Below are positions 427 through 27,789 of a DNA stretch of 34,160 nt, piece by piece. The notes beneath the pieces are model-generated. The model was not told the origin of the DNA, did not search any database, and saw only the letters and a list, made by a program, of their open reading frames with translations. Positions within the stretch are counted from its first letter, which is position 1; each line of letters opens with the position of its first letter. This stretch comes from Candidatus Vogelbacteria bacterium (GTDB lineage Bacteria; Patescibacteriota; Minisyncoccia; Phycocordibacterales; UBA12445), in assembly GCA_016215345.1 (NCBI GenBank), contig JACRKD010000026.1, positions 1 to 34,160 of the forward strand, read 5' to 3'. Made by a program: the position numbers and the translations under genes.

Positions 427-1104
427 ATGGCAAGACCAGAATTTATAGATGGCGGTATTTATCATATTTATAATCGCGGTACTGATAAGAGAGATATCTT
501 TCTAGATGATCAGGATTATTTTCGTTTTATACATTATTTGTATGCATGTAACGATGTTGAACCGCTAGAAAAAATAGAGAATCTAATAATCGGAGATCCG
601 ATCTCCGGAATTAGGGGTCGGGAGAGGCTTGTTAGCATTTTTTGTTATGCGCTGCTGCCGAATCACTTTCATTTGCTCATCCAACAGAGGAAAGAAGGTG
701 GCGTTAGTAAGTTTATGCAGAAATTATCTATTGGGTATACGATGTATTTCAATGTTAGAAATGAACGAACCGGGGTTCTTTTTCAGGGAAAATTTAAGAG
801 TAAGTTTGTAGACGACGAAAAATATCTAGAAACACTTGTAAATTATATCCATCTTAATCCGTTGGATATTTTTCAAAAGAAATGGAAAGAAAATGGAGTG
901 AAAGATTACGCCTCCGCTAAAAACTTTTTGGAAGAGTATCGGTGGTCTAGTTACCTAGATTATATAGGCAAAAAGAACCTTCCTTCATTATTAGATTTTG
1001 TAGCTATCAAAGAGAATCTGGGGGATACCATTGAACACAAAGATACTCTGAATCATTTACTTAAGGATTATGGCGACGGTATCGCCGGCTTACTTTTAGA
1101 CTAA
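427..1104 (+). CDS. REP-associated tyrosine transposase (RAYT, Y1_Tnp/IS200-like)
   Basis: MARPEFIDGGIYHIYNRGTDKRDIF... and ALLPNHFHLLIQQ (HxH) and YIHLNPL are RAYT signatures; start at 427 preferred over 409; extended -10 TGcTATACT about 10 nt upstream. Confidence 0.9.
   Translation: MARPEFIDGGIYHIYNRGTDKRDIFLDDQDYFRFIHYLYACNDVEPLEKIENLIIGDPISGIRGRERLVSIFCYALLPNHFHLLIQQRKEGGVSKFMQKLSIGYTMYFNVRNERTGVLFQGKFKSKFVDDEKYLETLVNYIHLNPLDIFQKKWKENGVKDYASAKNFLEEYRWSSYLDYIGKKNLPSLLDFVAIKENLGDTIEHKDTLNHLLKDYGDGIAGLLLD
591..607. repeat. REP-like palindrome, RAYT1 family, copy inside the transposase CDS
   Basis: TCGGAGATCCGATCTCCGGAA identical to the flanking copy; encodes IIGDPISGI. Confidence 0.9.
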
Positions 1105-6009: not shown

Positions 6010-6876
6010 ATGATTATTGATGGAAAGAAAATCAGTGCCGAAATAAAAGAAGAGTTAAAAAAGCAGGTAGCTTTATCAGGGGAAAAAATATCTCTCGGGG
6101 TTATTTGGGTTGGGGATTATCCTATTTCCGGAAGATATGTTCGGATGAAAAAGAAGTTTGGCGAGGAGGCGGGAATAGAAGTGAACATTTATAAGTTGCC
6201 TCTAACTATTTCGACGGATGATTTTATAAAAAAAACTCGAGAAATTTCGGAGAAAGAATCCGGGATCATAATTCAACTTCCTCTTCCAGAAAAGGTAGAT
6301 TATAAATTAGTTTTGTCGAACATCCCGGAAGGAAAAGATGTTGATCTTTTGTCGGAACAAGCCTATTTGGAATTTGAAAAAGGTGTCTCTAAAATTTTAC
6401 CTCCAGTCGTTGGCGCGATAAAGGAGATTTTGGAAAGGTCTGGCGTAACAGAGGATAAAATTTCTGGGCTCGACGTTGTTTGCGTCGGCAGAGGGAAGCT
6501 CGTTGGAAAACCAGCAGCTTCTTGGTTTAAGAACCTAGGCGCGAATGTTATTCTTCTGGGGCGGGACACAGAGGATATCGGAGAATTTACAAAAACGGCC
6601 GACATAATAATCTCTGGCGCAGGCGTTCCTGGAATTATAAAACCCTATATGTTTCCAGAAAAATCTGAAACAAAATCAGGCTTGACTACTACTGGCCAGA
6701 GCGGAGTTATTTTGATAGACGCGTCTACCTCGGATGTCGGCGGAAAGTTAATAGGAGACGCCGATCCAGCTTGCGCGGAAAAATGTTCGGTTTTTTCACC
6801 CGTCCCCGGCGGTGTCGGGCCGATAACCGTAGCCATGCTCTTTAAGAATTTGGTAACACTTCAACTTGGAAACTAA
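6010..6876 (+). CDS. folD: Methylenetetrahydrofolate dehydrogenase/cyclohydrolase
   Basis: DGKKISAEIKEELKK, YVRMKKKFGEEAGI, IIQLPLP, GRGKLVGKPAASW, PVPGGVGPITVAML; start at 6010 preferred over 5989. Confidence 0.95.
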   Translation: MIIDGKKISAEIKEELKKQVALSGEKISLGVIWVGDYPISGRYVRMKKKFGEEAGIEVNIYKLPLTISTDDFIKKTREISEKESGIIIQLPLPEKVDYKLVLSNIPEGKDVDLLSEQAYLEFEKGVSKILPPVVGAIKEILERSGVTEDKISGLDVVCVGRGKLVGKPAASWFKNLGANVILLGRDTEDIGEFTKTADIIISGAGVPGIIKPYMFPEKSETKSGLTTTGQSGVILIDASTSDVGGKLIGDADPACAEKCSVFSPVPGGVGPITVAMLFKNLVTLQLGN

Positions 6877-6886
6877 GTTCCCAAGT
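6864..6886. repeat. REP-like palindrome, RAYT2 family, upstream copy
   Basis: ACTTGGAAAC-TAA-GTTCCCAAGT, 9/10 bp stem; the TAA loop is the folD stop codon. Confidence 0.88.
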
Positions 6887-6900
6887 GCTATAGTTTCTGG

Positions 6901-7563
6901 ATGAGGAATTTTTCTTTTGAAGAAGGGGGGTATTATCATGTTTATAATAGAGGTGTTGATAAACGTCAGATCGTTATGGATGATTACGATAGTGGGCGTT
7001 TCGTGCAGGGACTCACGGAGTTTAACGTTGTCGAGCCGATTGGAAGTATTTATGAAAATTCATTTAAAAAGACTCAGGATCAACTTAGGTACTTAGTTCC
7101 CAAGTCTGGTGGGCTTGTGAATATAATTTGTTATTGTTTAAATCCCAATCATTTTCATTTACTACTTCAGCCGATTTCTGAGAGGGGAATAGAAAAATTT
7201 ATGCATAAATTGGGATTGGGATACACAAACTATTTTAATAAAAAGCATAAGAGATCCGGGGCGTTGTTTCAGGGGACTTTTAAGGCAAAACATGTTTTTA
7301 CAGATGGCTATATTCAACACTTAAGCGCTTATATAAATTTAAACAATCTGGTTCATAAAATAGAGGGGGAGCCATCAAAATTAGTTCGCTCAAGCTGGGA
7401 AGAGTACGCAGAAGATAAAAAGTCGATTTGTCGTAAGGATATAATCTTAGATCAATTTGGCGATGCACGAGAATACAAAACATATTGTACTGACGTTTTG
7501 CCTATGTTAATAGAGAATAAAAGTTTAGCAAAGGAACTTCGGGAGTTGGGTTTTGAAGAATAA
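6901..7563 (+). CDS. REP-associated tyrosine transposase (RAYT), second family
   Basis: GGYYHVYNRGVDKRQIV, CLNPNHFHLLLQP, FNKKHKRSGALFQGTFKAKHV, YINLNNL; extended -10 TGcTATAGT just upstream. Confidence 0.9.
   Translation: MRNFSFEEGGYYHVYNRGVDKRQIVMDDYDSGRFVQGLTEFNVVEPIGSIYENSFKKTQDQLRYLVPKSGGLVNIICYCLNPNHFHLLLQPISERGIEKFMHKLGLGYTNYFNKKHKRSGALFQGTFKAKHVFTDGYIQHLSAYINLNNLVHKIEGEPSKLVRSSWEEYAEDKKSICRKDIILDQFGDAREYKTYCTDVLPMLIENKSLAKELRELGFEE
7083..7105. repeat. REP-like palindrome, RAYT2 family, degenerate copy inside the transposase CDS
   Basis: ACTTAGGTAC-TTA-GTTCCCAAGT; right arm intact, left arm with 2 changes. Confidence 0.75.
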
Positions 7564-7569
7564 GTTATT

Positions 7570-7592
7570 ACTTGGGAACTAAGTTCCCAAGT
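7570..7592. repeat. REP-like palindrome, RAYT2 family, downstream copy
   Basis: ACTTGGGAAC-TAA-GTTCCCAAGT, perfect 10-bp stem. Confidence 0.9.
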
Positions 7593-7627
7593 AAGGGTGG
7601 CCGTTTTTATTTTCTGCTGGTGCTGGC

Positions 7628-7683
7628 TCGATAACCGTAGCCATGCTCTTTAAGAACCTTGTCAGGGTTACTGAACGTACGTA
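7628..7683 (+). pseudogene. Second copy of the 3' end of folD
   Basis: GATAACCGTAGCCATGCTCTTTAAGAA matches the folD tail; reads SITVAMLFKNLVRVTERT*. Confidence 0.7.
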
Positions 7684-18616: not shown

Positions 18617-21313
18617 ATGGACGACAGTTTCTTGGGTAAAAGGTTTACCATTATGGGTATGGACGGGGGCGGACGCGGATTGAAAGATGCGCGCTTTTTG
18701 CTTCTACACGGCGTAGAGGTTATAGGGACGGACTTGAGGAAGGCTGAAGAGTTTCCGGAGGCGGTCGCGCTTGCAAAACAGCATAAAAATCTCCGCTTGG
18801 TCTTTGGGGAACATAGACTTACTGATTTTCAGAATAGAGATTTTATAATTCGCGCGGCGAAAACTCCCATTGATTCACCATATCTCGCAGAAGCTAGAAA
18901 AAATAATATTCCCGTTGTCTCTGATGAGACTTTGTTTTTGACGTATGCGCCGCAAGTTTTAACGGTAGGCGTTACCGGTACGCGAGGGAAGACCACCGTT
19001 ACATACATGATTCATGAAATATTGAAAATTGCTTCTGGCACACAGGTCGGTACTGTGTGTCGTGTGTATTTGGGTGGGAACGTGCAAGATACTGCCATGT
19101 TGCCGTTGTTGGATAAAATTAAAGATGGTGACTATCTTGTTATGGAACTAGACTCTTGGAAACTTCAGAGTTTTGCCGAGAATAAAATAAGTCCGAATAT
19201 TGCAGTTTTTACAACTTTCTATCGAGATCACATGGATTATTATAATGGAGATATGGATAGATACTGGCTAGATAAGTCTGCTATTTTTGTGAATCAGAAA
19301 AAGGGAGACAGGTTAATCGTAAGTTCACAAGTAAAAAACTATCGAAGCCCATGCCTCATCGGCAGACAGGCGATTTCAACGGTCTCTCCCATGGTAGTCG
19401 GCACAGAGTATTTGCCAATAGATTGGAAATTAAAAATTTTGGGTGACCATAATCGTCTCAATGCGGGGCTCGCTCTCGCCATGGCGCGCTCGCTCGATAT
19501 ACCGGACGAGATAAGTAGAAAAGCCCTTGAAAGTTTTAATGGAGTTCCGGGTCGTCTTGAGTATCTGGGTGAGAAAAATGGAGTGAAATATTTTAACGAT
19601 ACGGCCTCGACTTCTCCGGAGGGCACTATCGCCGGCCTTAATGCCTTGAAAGACTATAGAGGTAAGATAATATTGATTGGTGGCGGTTCTGATAAGGGTT
19701 TTGAGTATGGAAAGTATGCGGACGAAGTCAAACAATATGTAAGGTCACTCATTTTATTTAGAGGTTCTGCTTCAGACAAAATATTAAAGATATTGGGAGA
19801 TGATGGGGTTGTTGTTGATAAGAATATTGGTAGTATGTCTGAGGCCTTTAGCTTGGCCCAATCCGTCGCAGGGTCAGGCGACGTAATTCTTCTTTCTCCC
19901 GGCGCTGCCTCTTTCGGAATCTTTAAGAATGAATACGATCGAGGGGCACAGTTTAATAGAAGGTTGAACCTTCTAGGGCATCAGACAGCAAGAAAAATTT
20001 ATTTCGTTGGTATCGGCGGAATTGGGATTTCGGCGATTGCCAGAATGATGTTGCTAGACGGAAAAACGGTTTCCGGAACGGATGCCAGCGAATCTCCGGT
20101 TACCGAGGAACTTGCTAAACTTGGAGCGAAAATAAATATTGAACATAGAGCCGGGAACATAACCGAGGACATTAATCTTGTCGTTTATTCTATCGCCGTA
20201 ACGCCCTCTAATCCGGAGCTTGTTCGCGCGCGCGAGCTTGGCCTTCTCGTTATGAGTTATCCGGAAATTCTCGCCGAAGTTACGAAGAACTATTTTACAG
20301 TTGCGGTTTCCGGGACACACGGAAAAACGACGACAACGGCTATGATTGCGAAAATTCTCATCGATGCCGGTCTCGACCCTACCGTTATTGTCGGCAGTTT
20401 GCTCCATGAACGTAACCCTTCGATGGGTTCGACGAGCTCACCACAAGCTCCTTCAGGGAGAGGCACTAACTTTATCGCCGGAAAGGGGAAGATTTTAGTT
20501 CTTGAGGCGGATGAATATAGAAGAACATTTATGAAGATAACGCCTCGTCTTGTCGTTATAACAAACATAGATGTTGACCATCTCGATTATTATAAAGATC
20601 TCGATGATATTAAATCTGTCTTCCGTAGTTTCGCTTTGAAGCTTGGGTCGGAAGATCATTTGGTTTGTGATATTGGCCAGAAGAATCTTTTTGATGTTTA
20701 TGGGGGGCTAGATTGCAAGGTTTTGAATTATGGGGAGATATGTCGGCCGGATTTAATTGTTCCGGGTGAGCATAATAGAGATAACGCTCGCGCCGCGATC
20801 GCCACAGCCATCGCGCTCGGCGTCAGTGAAGACAATGCTCGGAAAAGTTTGGAGACTTTTTCGGGAACCTGGCGGAGACTTGAGAAGAAGGGGTCGCTTG
20901 TATCGGGTGTGATTATATATGACGACTACGCGCATAACCCGGGCAAGATTAAGGCAGCTATAGCCGGTCTTCGGGAACTTTATCCGGATAAAAAGATAAC
21001 AGTTGTATTTATGCCGCATCTTTTCAGTCGTACAAAAATCTTACTTCATGAACTTGCCGAAAGTTTATCTGGCGCGGATCGAGTATATGTTACAGATATT
21101 TATGCTGCGCGAGAGCTTTCCGATCCAACTATTCACGCGAGAGATTTGGTGGACGCGATAAATGTTAAACAAGGGCTAGGTGAGTATCTGGGGGATTTGA
21201 ACGATTTTGCAGAAAAGATTAAGACGCGTTTGTCAGGTGAAGATGTTCTTGTAACCATGGGGGCGGGGGATATATATAAACTGGGAGAGAAAATTCTAAA
21301 ATTTGACTTGTAG
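18617..21313 (+). CDS. MurD-MurC fusion (UDP-MurNAc-Ala:D-Glu ligase + UDP-MurNAc:L-Ala ligase)
   Basis: GVTGTRGKTTVTYM and NDTASTSPEGTIAGL (MurD); YFVGIGGIGISAIARM, VSGTHGKTTTTAMI, VLEADEYRRTFMK, IYDDYAHNPGKI (MurC). Confidence 0.93.
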   Translation: MDDSFLGKRFTIMGMDGGGRGLKDARFLLLHGVEVIGTDLRKAEEFPEAVALAKQHKNLRLVFGEHRLTDFQNRDFIIRAAKTPIDSPYLAEARKNNIPVVSDETLFLTYAPQVLTVGVTGTRGKTTVTYMIHEILKIASGTQVGTVCRVYLGGNVQDTAMLPLLDKIKDGDYLVMELDSWKLQSFAENKISPNIAVFTTFYRDHMDYYNGDMDRYWLDKSAIFVNQKKGDRLIVSSQVKNYRSPCLIGRQAISTVSPMVVGTEYLPIDWKLKILGDHNRLNAGLALAMARSLDIPDEISRKALESFNGVPGRLEYLGEKNGVKYFNDTASTSPEGTIAGLNALKDYRGKIILIGGGSDKGFEYGKYADEVKQYVRSLILFRGSASDKILKILGDDGVVVDKNIGSMSEAFSLAQSVAGSGDVILLSPGAASFGIFKNEYDRGAQFNRRLNLLGHQTARKIYFVGIGGIGISAIARMMLLDGKTVSGTDASESPVTEELAKLGAKINIEHRAGNITEDINLVVYSIAVTPSNPELVRARELGLLVMSYPEILAEVTKNYFTVAVSGTHGKTTTTAMIAKILIDAGLDPTVIVGSLLHERNPSMGSTSSPQAPSGRGTNFIAGKGKILVLEADEYRRTFMKITPRLVVITNIDVDHLDYYKDLDDIKSVFRSFALKLGSEDHLVCDIGQKNLFDVYGGLDCKVLNYGEICRPDLIVPGEHNRDNARAAIATAIALGVSEDNARKSLETFSGTWRRLEKKGSLVSGVIIYDDYAHNPGKIKAAIAGLRELYPDKKITVVFMPHLFSRTKILLHELAESLSGADRVYVTDIYAARELSDPTIHARDLVDAINVKQGLGEYLGDLNDFAEKIKTRLSGEDVLVTMGAGDIYKLGEKILKFDL
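20417..20466 (+). repeat. Probable palindromic element inserted in frame in the murC domain
   Basis: CCCTTCGATGGGTTCGACGAGCTCACCACAAGCTCCTTCAGGG has nested CCCT/AGGG and GAGCT/AGCTC arms; adds about PSMGSTSSPQAPSGRG. Confidence 0.55.
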
Positions 21314-25836: not shown

Positions 25837-27789
25837 ATGTCGGAGTTTCCCAACAAGGATGTTACATATTTTGCCGAAGCTGATTTCCGCAATAAGGGGG
25901 TTAGATTTGGCATAAAATCTCTCGATAGGACGAGGCATTTTTATGTTATTGGGAAGACCGGCTTCGGAAAGTCCACCCTTCTTGAGAATATGACGATTCA
26001 GGATATTGATAATAATAATGGTGTCGGCTATATGGATCCACACGGAAAATCGGCTGAACTCTTCCTTGATTACATTCCGAAAGAAAGGATAAAAGATGTC
26101 ATTTATTTCGCGCCCCATGACATGGAATACCCCTTTGCCTTTAACGTCATGGAGGACGTGGGGAAAGACCAAAGACACCTCGTGGCGAATGGACTTATGG
26201 CGGCCTTCAAGAAGATCTGGCCGGATGTTTGGTCGGCTCGTATGGAATATATCTCCACTAATATTATTCTGGCGCTTTTGGAATATCCGGATTCGACCAT
26301 GCTTGGAGTAAACCGAATGCTTTCAGATAAGGCGTACAGAAATAAAGTTGTCGCGTATATTACAGATCCTTCCGTTAAATCCTTTTGGGTCGATGAATAT
26401 GCGAAATACGGCGAGAAGCTGATGGCCGAGGCTTCCGCTTCGATCCAAAATAAATTTGGGCAGTTTATTTCCAACCCGCTCATTAGAAATATTCTTGGGC
26501 AACCTAAGTCCACCTTTAATCTGCGTGACGTGATGGACGGCAAAAAGATTCTTATTATGAATCTCTCAAAGGGGCAGATGGGAGAGATTAACGCGAACCT
26601 CATAGGAGGTATGCTTATTACAAAAATATATCTTGCCGCCATGTCTCGCGCTGGTGATAGCGCCGAAGCCCAGGATAAACTCCCGCCATTTTATTTCTTT
26701 GTAGACGAGTTTCAGTCTTTCGTTAACGAATCGTTTAAGGATATTTTGTCGGAAGCTAGAAAATATAAATTGGCATTAACAATCGCGCACCAATATATTG
26801 AGCAAGTCCCTGAGGAGGTGAGGAACGCGGTCTTTGGAAACGTTGGAACGCTGGTTACTTTTAGGGTTGGTCCGCTCGATGCCGAAATGTTTGAAAAAGT
26901 TTTTACCCCGAAGTTTCTAGCGGCCGATCTTGTGAATCTTGGTTTCGCCCAGATATATTTAACTCTCATGATAGACGGCGTAGGCTCTCAACCGTTCTCT
27001 GCCAAGACTATGGGGCCCATTAAAAAGCCCGATGTATCTTACAGACAAGAAGTGATAGATCACTCGAGAAAAACTTACGCGAAGCCTCGCGCAGAGGTTG
27101 AGGCTGACATCGCCAAGTGGTACGCTTCTGGGACGGAAGATGTTCCTGCCGCTCTCGCCAAATTTGTCCCTCTGGGCCGGAGTGACAACCAGTCCGCTAA
27201 GCCTGCCTTTTCTCAAGACAAGAGGCCGACGTCCTCATCGTCGATAGGAGGAGTTCGACCCATCCCCCCGCCAATCCCGAGACCCCTTATGTCAAGACCG
27301 CCAGCCCCCACCCTTAACTCGACGAGAGGAGGCCCACCATCTTCACCTAGGGCGGGTGGTTTTCCCGCTAGATCCGGTTCACCCTCACTTGGAGGTCGAA
27401 CCTCCAACGGGAGGTTCGACCTCCAAGTACCAGTGGCACCAAAGATGTCTCTTTCAGAGTTACAGGGGAATAAGCCAATACAGCCAGTAGAAAAGTTCAC
27501 AGGCAGGAATGTCCCGGATCTCAAGAAAGCCATAGAAGAGGCTATGAGAAATAACAAGCCTAGCCAAGTAGCGCACGGGGTGAGCCTATCGAACCAGCCA
27601 AAAGTTGAGGCTAAAATAGGCGAGGCGATGCGGGCCAAGGCACCTGAGTCGATGGAGTCAGCCACGCAAATTTCATCTGTGGCCAAGGAGGAAAATAAGC
27701 CTATCGACTTCGCGGAAGCCAAGTCGGTTAAAGAGGTTCCGGAAGAGGTTTTAAGAAAGATTTTGGGGTCAGATGATATTGGCAAATAA
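25837..27789 (+). CDS. VirD4/TraD-like type IV secretion or conjugation family ATPase
   Basis: HFYVIGKTGFGKSTLLENM (Walker A), GYMDPHGKSAEL, PFYFFVDEFQSF (Walker B), ARKYKLALTIAHQY; proline-rich C-terminus. Confidence 0.88.
   Translation: MSEFPNKDVTYFAEADFRNKGVRFGIKSLDRTRHFYVIGKTGFGKSTLLENMTIQDIDNNNGVGYMDPHGKSAELFLDYIPKERIKDVIYFAPHDMEYPFAFNVMEDVGKDQRHLVANGLMAAFKKIWPDVWSARMEYISTNIILALLEYPDSTMLGVNRMLSDKAYRNKVVAYITDPSVKSFWVDEYAKYGEKLMAEASASIQNKFGQFISNPLIRNILGQPKSTFNLRDVMDGKKILIMNLSKGQMGEINANLIGGMLITKIYLAAMSRAGDSAEAQDKLPPFYFFVDEFQSFVNESFKDILSEARKYKLALTIAHQYIEQVPEEVRNAVFGNVGTLVTFRVGPLDAEMFEKVFTPKFLAADLVNLGFAQIYLTLMIDGVGSQPFSAKTMGPIKKPDVSYRQEVIDHSRKTYAKPRAEVEADIAKWYASGTEDVPAALAKFVPLGRSDNQSAKPAFSQDKRPTSSSSIGGVRPIPPPIPRPLMSRPPAPTLNSTRGGPPSSPRAGGFPARSGSPSLGGRTSNGRFDLQVPVAPKMSLSELQGNKPIQPVEKFTGRNVPDLKKAIEEAMRNNKPSQVAHGVSLSNQPKVEAKIGEAMRAKAPESMESATQISSVAKEENKPIDFAEAKSVKEVPEEVLRKILGSDDIGK
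27387..27428. repeat. Perfect 19-bp-stem palindrome inside the ATPase CDS
   Basis: ACTTGGAGGTCGAACCTCC-AACG-GGAGGTTCGACCTCCAAGT. Confidence 0.92.

Follow-up and report, generated by a model that had tools for sequence, protein, structure and literature searches.

Why does a transposase gene bounded on both sides by a palindrome carry one more copy of it within the coding sequence? The question is raised by RAYT2, encoded in the window (the whole stretch of 34,160 nucleotides analysed here), a single contig from a Patescibacterial genome of 704,745 bp. The named close relatives of this genome belong to Paceibacteria/Parcubacteria. The features concerned are as follows.

379 to 395, unstranded: upstream palindrome of RAYT1, exact CGGAGATCCGATCTCCG
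427 to 1104, forward strand: RAYT1, of RAYT2-like architecture with a different palindrome
591 to 607, unstranded: internal in-frame palindrome of RAYT1 at site 1, exact CGGAGATCCGATCTCCG
1117 to 1133, unstranded: downstream palindrome of RAYT1, exact CGGAGATCCGATCTCCG
6010 to 6876, forward strand: folD, its 3' end lying inside palindrome U
6864 to 6886, unstranded: upstream palindrome U of RAYT2, 10-3-10 with one left-arm mismatch, ACTTGGAAACTAAGTTCCCAAGT
6901 to 7563, forward strand: RAYT2, a Y1/HuH tyrosine transposase of 220 aa (Pfam Y1_Tnp)
7083 to 7105, unstranded: internal in-frame palindrome of RAYT2 at site 1, ACTTAGGTACTTAGTTCCCAAGT, in inverted orientation
7570 to 7592, unstranded: downstream palindrome D of RAYT2, a perfect 10-3-10, ACTTGGGAACTAAGTTCCCAAGT
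7619 to 7656, forward strand: second, diverged copy of part of the 3' end of folD, on the downstream side of RAYT2 (89% over a 38-bp stretch, against 6811-6848)

RAYT2 scores 31.9 bits against Pfam Y1_Tnp (PF01797), above the cutoff of 23, and displays a PNHFH motif at residues 82-86 as well as a candidate catalytic Tyr144 in YINLN. Its AlphaFold (AF2) model has a pLDDT of 87.5, and the closest PDB fold to this model is 4er8, the E. coli TnpA_REP-REP complex. The palindromes of the locus are 23 nt long and of the 10-3-10 form. folD stops at the central TAA of the upstream one (6874-6876). The internal one is translated as LRYLVPK, its centre being the codon TTA, and adjoins the low-confidence loop 57-68 of the model.

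The initial annotation had placed three palindromes around RAYT2, at 6864, 7083 and 7570, and all three are present. The consensus given there is exact at 7570-7592 only, as the copy at 6864 has one mismatch, whereas that at 7083-7105 lies in the opposite orientation and agrees with the reverse-complemented 7570 copy at 21 of 23 positions (2 mismatches, 15 contiguous identities). The proposed homology in position with the internal copy of RAYT1 holds, both copies lying in a common loop ahead of the strand that precedes PNHFH. Two more RAYTs, L003 and L004, bring the genome to four in all. L003 has flanking palindromes without an internal one, and no shared flanking palindrome was seen for L004. 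The identity of RAYT2 to the other three is at most 50%. In G091, a relative of about 0.5 Mb, 12 RAYT matches are found.

The folD end at 6811-6848 resembles that of the G003 ortholog and therefore looks native, with 7619-7656 as its diverged duplicate. The 3' end of the upstream gene is also repeated downstream of the RAYT element, with high protein similarity, at L045 and L069; at L045, many DNA differences between the gene-end copies look synonymous, as if two diverged alleles flanked the element. Such a duplication was dropped as a general mark of the element end, since it is clear in 3 of 74 cases only.

Matching between internal and flanking palindromes

The relationship between gene and flanks was examined in 106 discovery RAYTs and in 52 hold-out RAYTs, the latter mostly from other parts of the phylum. 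The sample consists of metagenome-assembled genomes in which RAYT ORFs were found by motif, so that divergent RAYTs were missed. The best ungapped match of each gene to its own flanks (300 nt per side, both strands) was compared with its match to the flanks of other RAYTs, a score of at least 16 counting as an own-flank match. An internal copy of the gene's own flanking palindrome is present in 78 of the 106 discovery genes, against 8 of about 630 other-flank comparisons, and in 23 of the 52 hold-out genes, against 2 of 412 (Fisher P < 1e-20 for own versus other flanks, the other-flank trials being mutually non-independent). The idea that the flanking palindrome predicts the sequence of the internal loop is thus strongly supported. 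When palindromes were found from the gene alone, blind to the flanks, the own flank was matched in 63/88 discovery and 10/14 hold-out cases, against 2/431 and 0/68 other-flank trials.

Matched flanking palindromes accompany most Patescibacterial RAYTs of the discovery set and many of the hold-out set. No internal copy was detected in 27 of the 106 discovery and 29 of the 52 hold-out RAYTs, among them some with intact flanks and HuH/Tyr motifs. The own-flank match of L106 was set aside as a non-palindromic C-terminal repeat. Outside Patescibacteria, E. coli rayT, L108 and L113 have no internal copy, and none was found in nine distant plasmid-borne relatives. A scan of viral contigs confirmed no phage-borne relative.

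Position, register and turnover of the copies

Over both sets, internal copies occupy site 1, the loop before HuH located 25-100 nt ahead of the PNH codon, in 71 genes, and site 2, located about 220-240 nt past the PNH codon and just beyond the helix of the catalytic Tyr, in 44 genes. They stand at the C-terminus in 18 genes and elsewhere in 2. A third variable-length loop, from SSW.EY to KDIIL, is almost palindrome-free. At site 2, the palindrome centre falls on codon position 2 in 32 of the 33 scored discovery copies; at site 1, it does so in 41 of 57 (41 of 61 with the four hits of unclear centre). Avoidance of stop codons was rejected as the cause of this constant register, all three registers being about equally stop-free.

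In the hold-out clades, other registers are common, and the loops were therefore colonised separately there. This bears on the earlier statement that the RAYT1 and RAYT2 families acquired palindrome and insertion point independently. For these two genes it is doubtful, as loop and register are the same and near-constant in the main clade, which fits an inherited site where only the sequence turns over; in the clades using other registers, some colonisations are independent.

The site 2 loop has a median length of 20 aa with a palindrome and 20 aa without, and an explanation of the palindrome as simple added length is unsupported there. At site 1, loops with and without a palindrome differ by 3 aa, below the 8 aa of palindrome length. 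The presence of a palindrome is therefore mostly invisible as added length. Orientations of the upstream, internal and downstream copies are mixed, with no clear strict rule, and a search of 86 upstream and 76 downstream copies revealed no conserved guide tetranucleotide of the GTAG type beyond the palindrome. At site 2 of L006, L008, L013 and L016, the palindrome often extends outward through arms (TTCACCA/TGGTGAA) that are absent from the flanks, while the flanking copies have symmetrical outer arms of their own, which suggests that these stems were lengthened in place.

The copies of an element turn over in concert. Between RAYT pairs at 45-70% protein identity, orthologous internal copies differ on average at 6.4-10.4 of the 19 central positions. 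Within one element, the distance is about 0.5-1.2, a figure that is lowered by the way internal copies were called, from flank similarity with at most 30% mismatches. The between-element distance and the flank-blind test are free of this bias, the latter covering it only in part. In L037, L041, L045, L067 and L119, an internal copy and one of the flanks carry an identical mid-stem mismatch, frequently in inverted orientation. Such common mismatches are expected from direct copying and not from independent selection for a stable stem; in these several elements, one copy was made from another.

At L062, the four copies have one and the same sequence; other loci carry copies of unequal type. The three copies of L005 (upstream, internal, downstream) differ in how many arms show a new variant, the numbers being 0, 1 and 2, and three copies of L069 have changed with the upstream one unchanged. 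L075 has new flanks, and its site 2 retains a decayed version of the palindrome of its sister L046. Site 1 of L044 differs in type from the other copies of that locus. These four elements are caught in an incompletely replaced state.

Copies also occur away from RAYT genes. The genome was scanned over 700,717 of its 704,745 bases (about 701 kb, small overlaps counted). Elsewhere, the RAYT2 palindrome recurs exactly as two solo copies (L159:4270 and L191:3332), that of RAYT1 as two exact copies and a paired one, and that of RAYT3 as at least two close copies. Many solo copies are in-frame within host genes. Thus, an RsmA-like gene has a clean 15-aa insertion, corresponding to a palindrome pair, that is missing from aligned related sequences; an RsmE-like gene has an inserted WELSSQ; and the RAYT3 palindrome lies in a PpsA-like gene with zero added length. 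In the DNA around other RAYTs, solo copies are rare, with 14 in 369 kb.

Several further cases can be mentioned. Two RAYT1-type insertions, at L177:2978-3022 and L177:3552-3572, share one RsmA-like gene, and one of them, an inverted pair of 45 nt, lengthens the protein by exactly 15 aa. In the window, a palindrome pair at 27387-27428 is in-frame in a proline-rich stretch of the ORF 25837-27789, and a RAYT3-type palindrome at 19957-19975 is in-frame near the half-half junction of a 906-aa Mur ligase-like ORF.

Origin of the internal copies

The reading preferred here, to which a probability of about two in three is given, is one of concerted evolution: the internal copies would occupy hairpin sites of long standing in tolerant loops, and copying would keep them in step with the current RAYT ends. 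RAYT2 would be a REPtron-like locus in which the gene of a Y1/HuH single-strand transposase is bounded by 23-nt hairpins, presumably recognised by the enzyme, and a further hairpin copy would reside in a disordered surface loop of the reading frame. The two loops, site 1 before HuH and site 2 after the catalytic Tyr, would be long-lived hairpin sites that persist in a fixed codon register, their sequence being repeatedly overwritten by the current flanking palindrome, so that all copies at one locus would evolve in concert. The copying unit would approximate the 23-nt hairpin itself. Occasionally, the same hairpin would spread to other genes and give rise to in-frame REP-like copies.

Copying may proceed through RAYT-catalysed hairpin cleavage and strand transfer or, alternatively, through template switching or gene conversion between nearby inverted repeats. 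Known TnpA_REP enzymes bind and cut their cognate ssDNA hairpins (PMC8266576), which makes a RAYT-catalysed exchange a reasonable inference, and copying is probably RAYT-driven. In both G000 and G001, the RsmE-like gene holds a copy close to the RAYT2 type, and the RAYT locus of G001 has changed sequence; as the RsmE copy was kept while that locus changed, copying seems to act mainly at the RAYT locus. Against the preferred reading count the missing GTAG-type tetranucleotide and the low bias of the within-element distances. In addition, some close relatives have the site 2 palindrome a few codons apart (L044 versus L064; L057/L069 versus most others), which suggests re-insertion and not in-place conversion in those cases.

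A bolder version is a self-updating system in which the enzyme would actively rewrite both the flanking hairpins and those in its own coding sequence, sites and specificity changing together, with the embedded hairpins required for control or mobility; it is regarded as rather doubtful. A related explanation makes the internal hairpins functional, either as an autoregulatory mRNA or ssDNA site or as extra hairpins of the transposition complex, and lets selection match them to a changing RAYT specificity. Their persistence in about three quarters of the discovery RAYTs, at fixed positions and with a near-constant register at site 2, speaks for it, as do the near-emptiness of the third length-variable loop of the same protein and the rarity of solo copies in flanking DNA. 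However, many RAYTs lack a detected internal copy, some of them with intact flanks and motifs, genes that look intact retain decayed copies (L120, L075), and the common mid-stem mismatches resemble copying and not optimisation of stem strength. The absent and decayed copies argue against a strict need for internal hairpins, and functional hairpins are held to be somewhat unlikely as the explanation. The initial annotation had offered function as one reading of the palindromes; in view of these RAYTs and of the in-frame solo copies in unrelated genes, this is not supported, and the internal copies are inferred to be mainly tolerated residents that are not required.

Ordinary REP insertion would suppose random transposition, of which in-frame insertions into tolerant loops survive, the RAYT gene being often struck through its closeness to the source. 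Host genes do carry in-frame insertions, such as the 15-aa one of the RsmA-like gene, precedents have been published (PMC3733652, PMC6006769), and the other registers of distant clades show repeated colonisation. Yet in the main clade the register of site 2 is constant and its loop is not lengthened, site 1 gains 3 aa only, the sequence turns over without loss of the site, and another loop of variable length is hardly ever occupied. Random insertion is weakened as the only explanation for this clade and is judged unlikely.

The encoded peptide could itself take part in hairpin recognition, protein and DNA sequence being linked by design, as near-identical peptides at sites 1 and 2 within one protein (L023, L015, L019) might indicate. 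This likeness is explained by the same DNA in the same register, though, and since site 1 is of low confidence in the model, many members have no such peptide and the registers of other clades yield other peptides, such a role is highly improbable. Chance similarity, already discounted by the initial annotation, or codon bias can be dismissed as next to impossible, being refuted by the own- versus other-flank comparison over 158 RAYTs, its hold-out part and its flank-blind version, with nothing found in its favour.

How RAYTs spread and how their palindromes change is an open question in REP biology. The present loci are natural records of hairpin replacement, with up to about four copies within 0.8 kb; one or two of these per locus lie within the gene, where the frame pins down both position and register, and some are caught midway in replacement. 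Which way hairpins are copied, over what tract length and with what dependence on the enzyme thereby become testable questions at RAYT loci. These loci further suggest that, in streamlined genomes, coding sequence can be overwritten by short mobile palindromes and keep its length.

Comparison with known systems

RAYT2 shares with REPtrons a Y1_Tnp domain and flanking palindromes that are also dispersed, at low copy number. On NCBIfam REP_Tyr_transpos (NF047646, cutoff 80 bits), RAYT2 and RAYT1 reach 22.5 and 42.1 bits, both below the cutoff. With these scores and no GTAG foot, they are therefore described as RAYT-like with a REPtron-like layout and not filed under the canonical family; on profile scores, they are related to REP_Tyr_transpos without being the curated equivalog.

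IS200/IS605 transposons resemble RAYT2 in their Y1/HuH fold and hairpin ends. Unlike them, RAYT2 has no near-identical genomic copies (at most 50% identity), and the motif is YINLN/YIHLN and not Y---Q. Intragenic REPs and Rickettsia palindromic elements (PMC3733652), like the solo copies described here, are palindromic repeats in-frame in protein-coding genes, but they are not described there as matched with the ends of a cognate transposase gene.

The closest layout is that of TnpAY1 subclass 2.4, for which Quentin et al. (2018; PMC6006769) describe REPs lying in-frame within tnpA_REP genes. As in RAYT2, these REPtrons combine a Y1/HuH gene, flanking palindromes and frame-preserving internal copies. 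According to that study, insertions in subclass 2.4 generally lie between HuH and Y and vary in length, whereas here they lie before HuH and after Tyr. Its members have the WQ motif, come from Cyanobacteria, Bacteroidetes and other phyla and go with REPs of the GT[AG]G type, whereas the present proteins have the FQ motif and come from Patescibacteria; no GTAG foot was seen with them, the site 2 register is near-constant and the palindromes turn over in concert.

By motif only, the present proteins resemble subclass 2.1, or Bertels group 1, RAYTs, with which they share NH[YF]H, FQ and an SS tail. In a comparison with the Y[IV]HLNP motif of this subclass, RAYT1 has YIHLNP and RAYT2 has YINLNN. 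PMC6006769 describes subclass 2.1 as having no REP-like sequences nearby, whereas the Patescibacterial RAYTs here possess matched palindromes. Among the papers searched, there was no account of RAYTs in Patescibacteria. What appears to be new with respect to the systems above is the positions and register of the internal copies, their concerted turnover, and the palindromes themselves in Patescibacterial RAYTs with subclass-2.1-like motifs.
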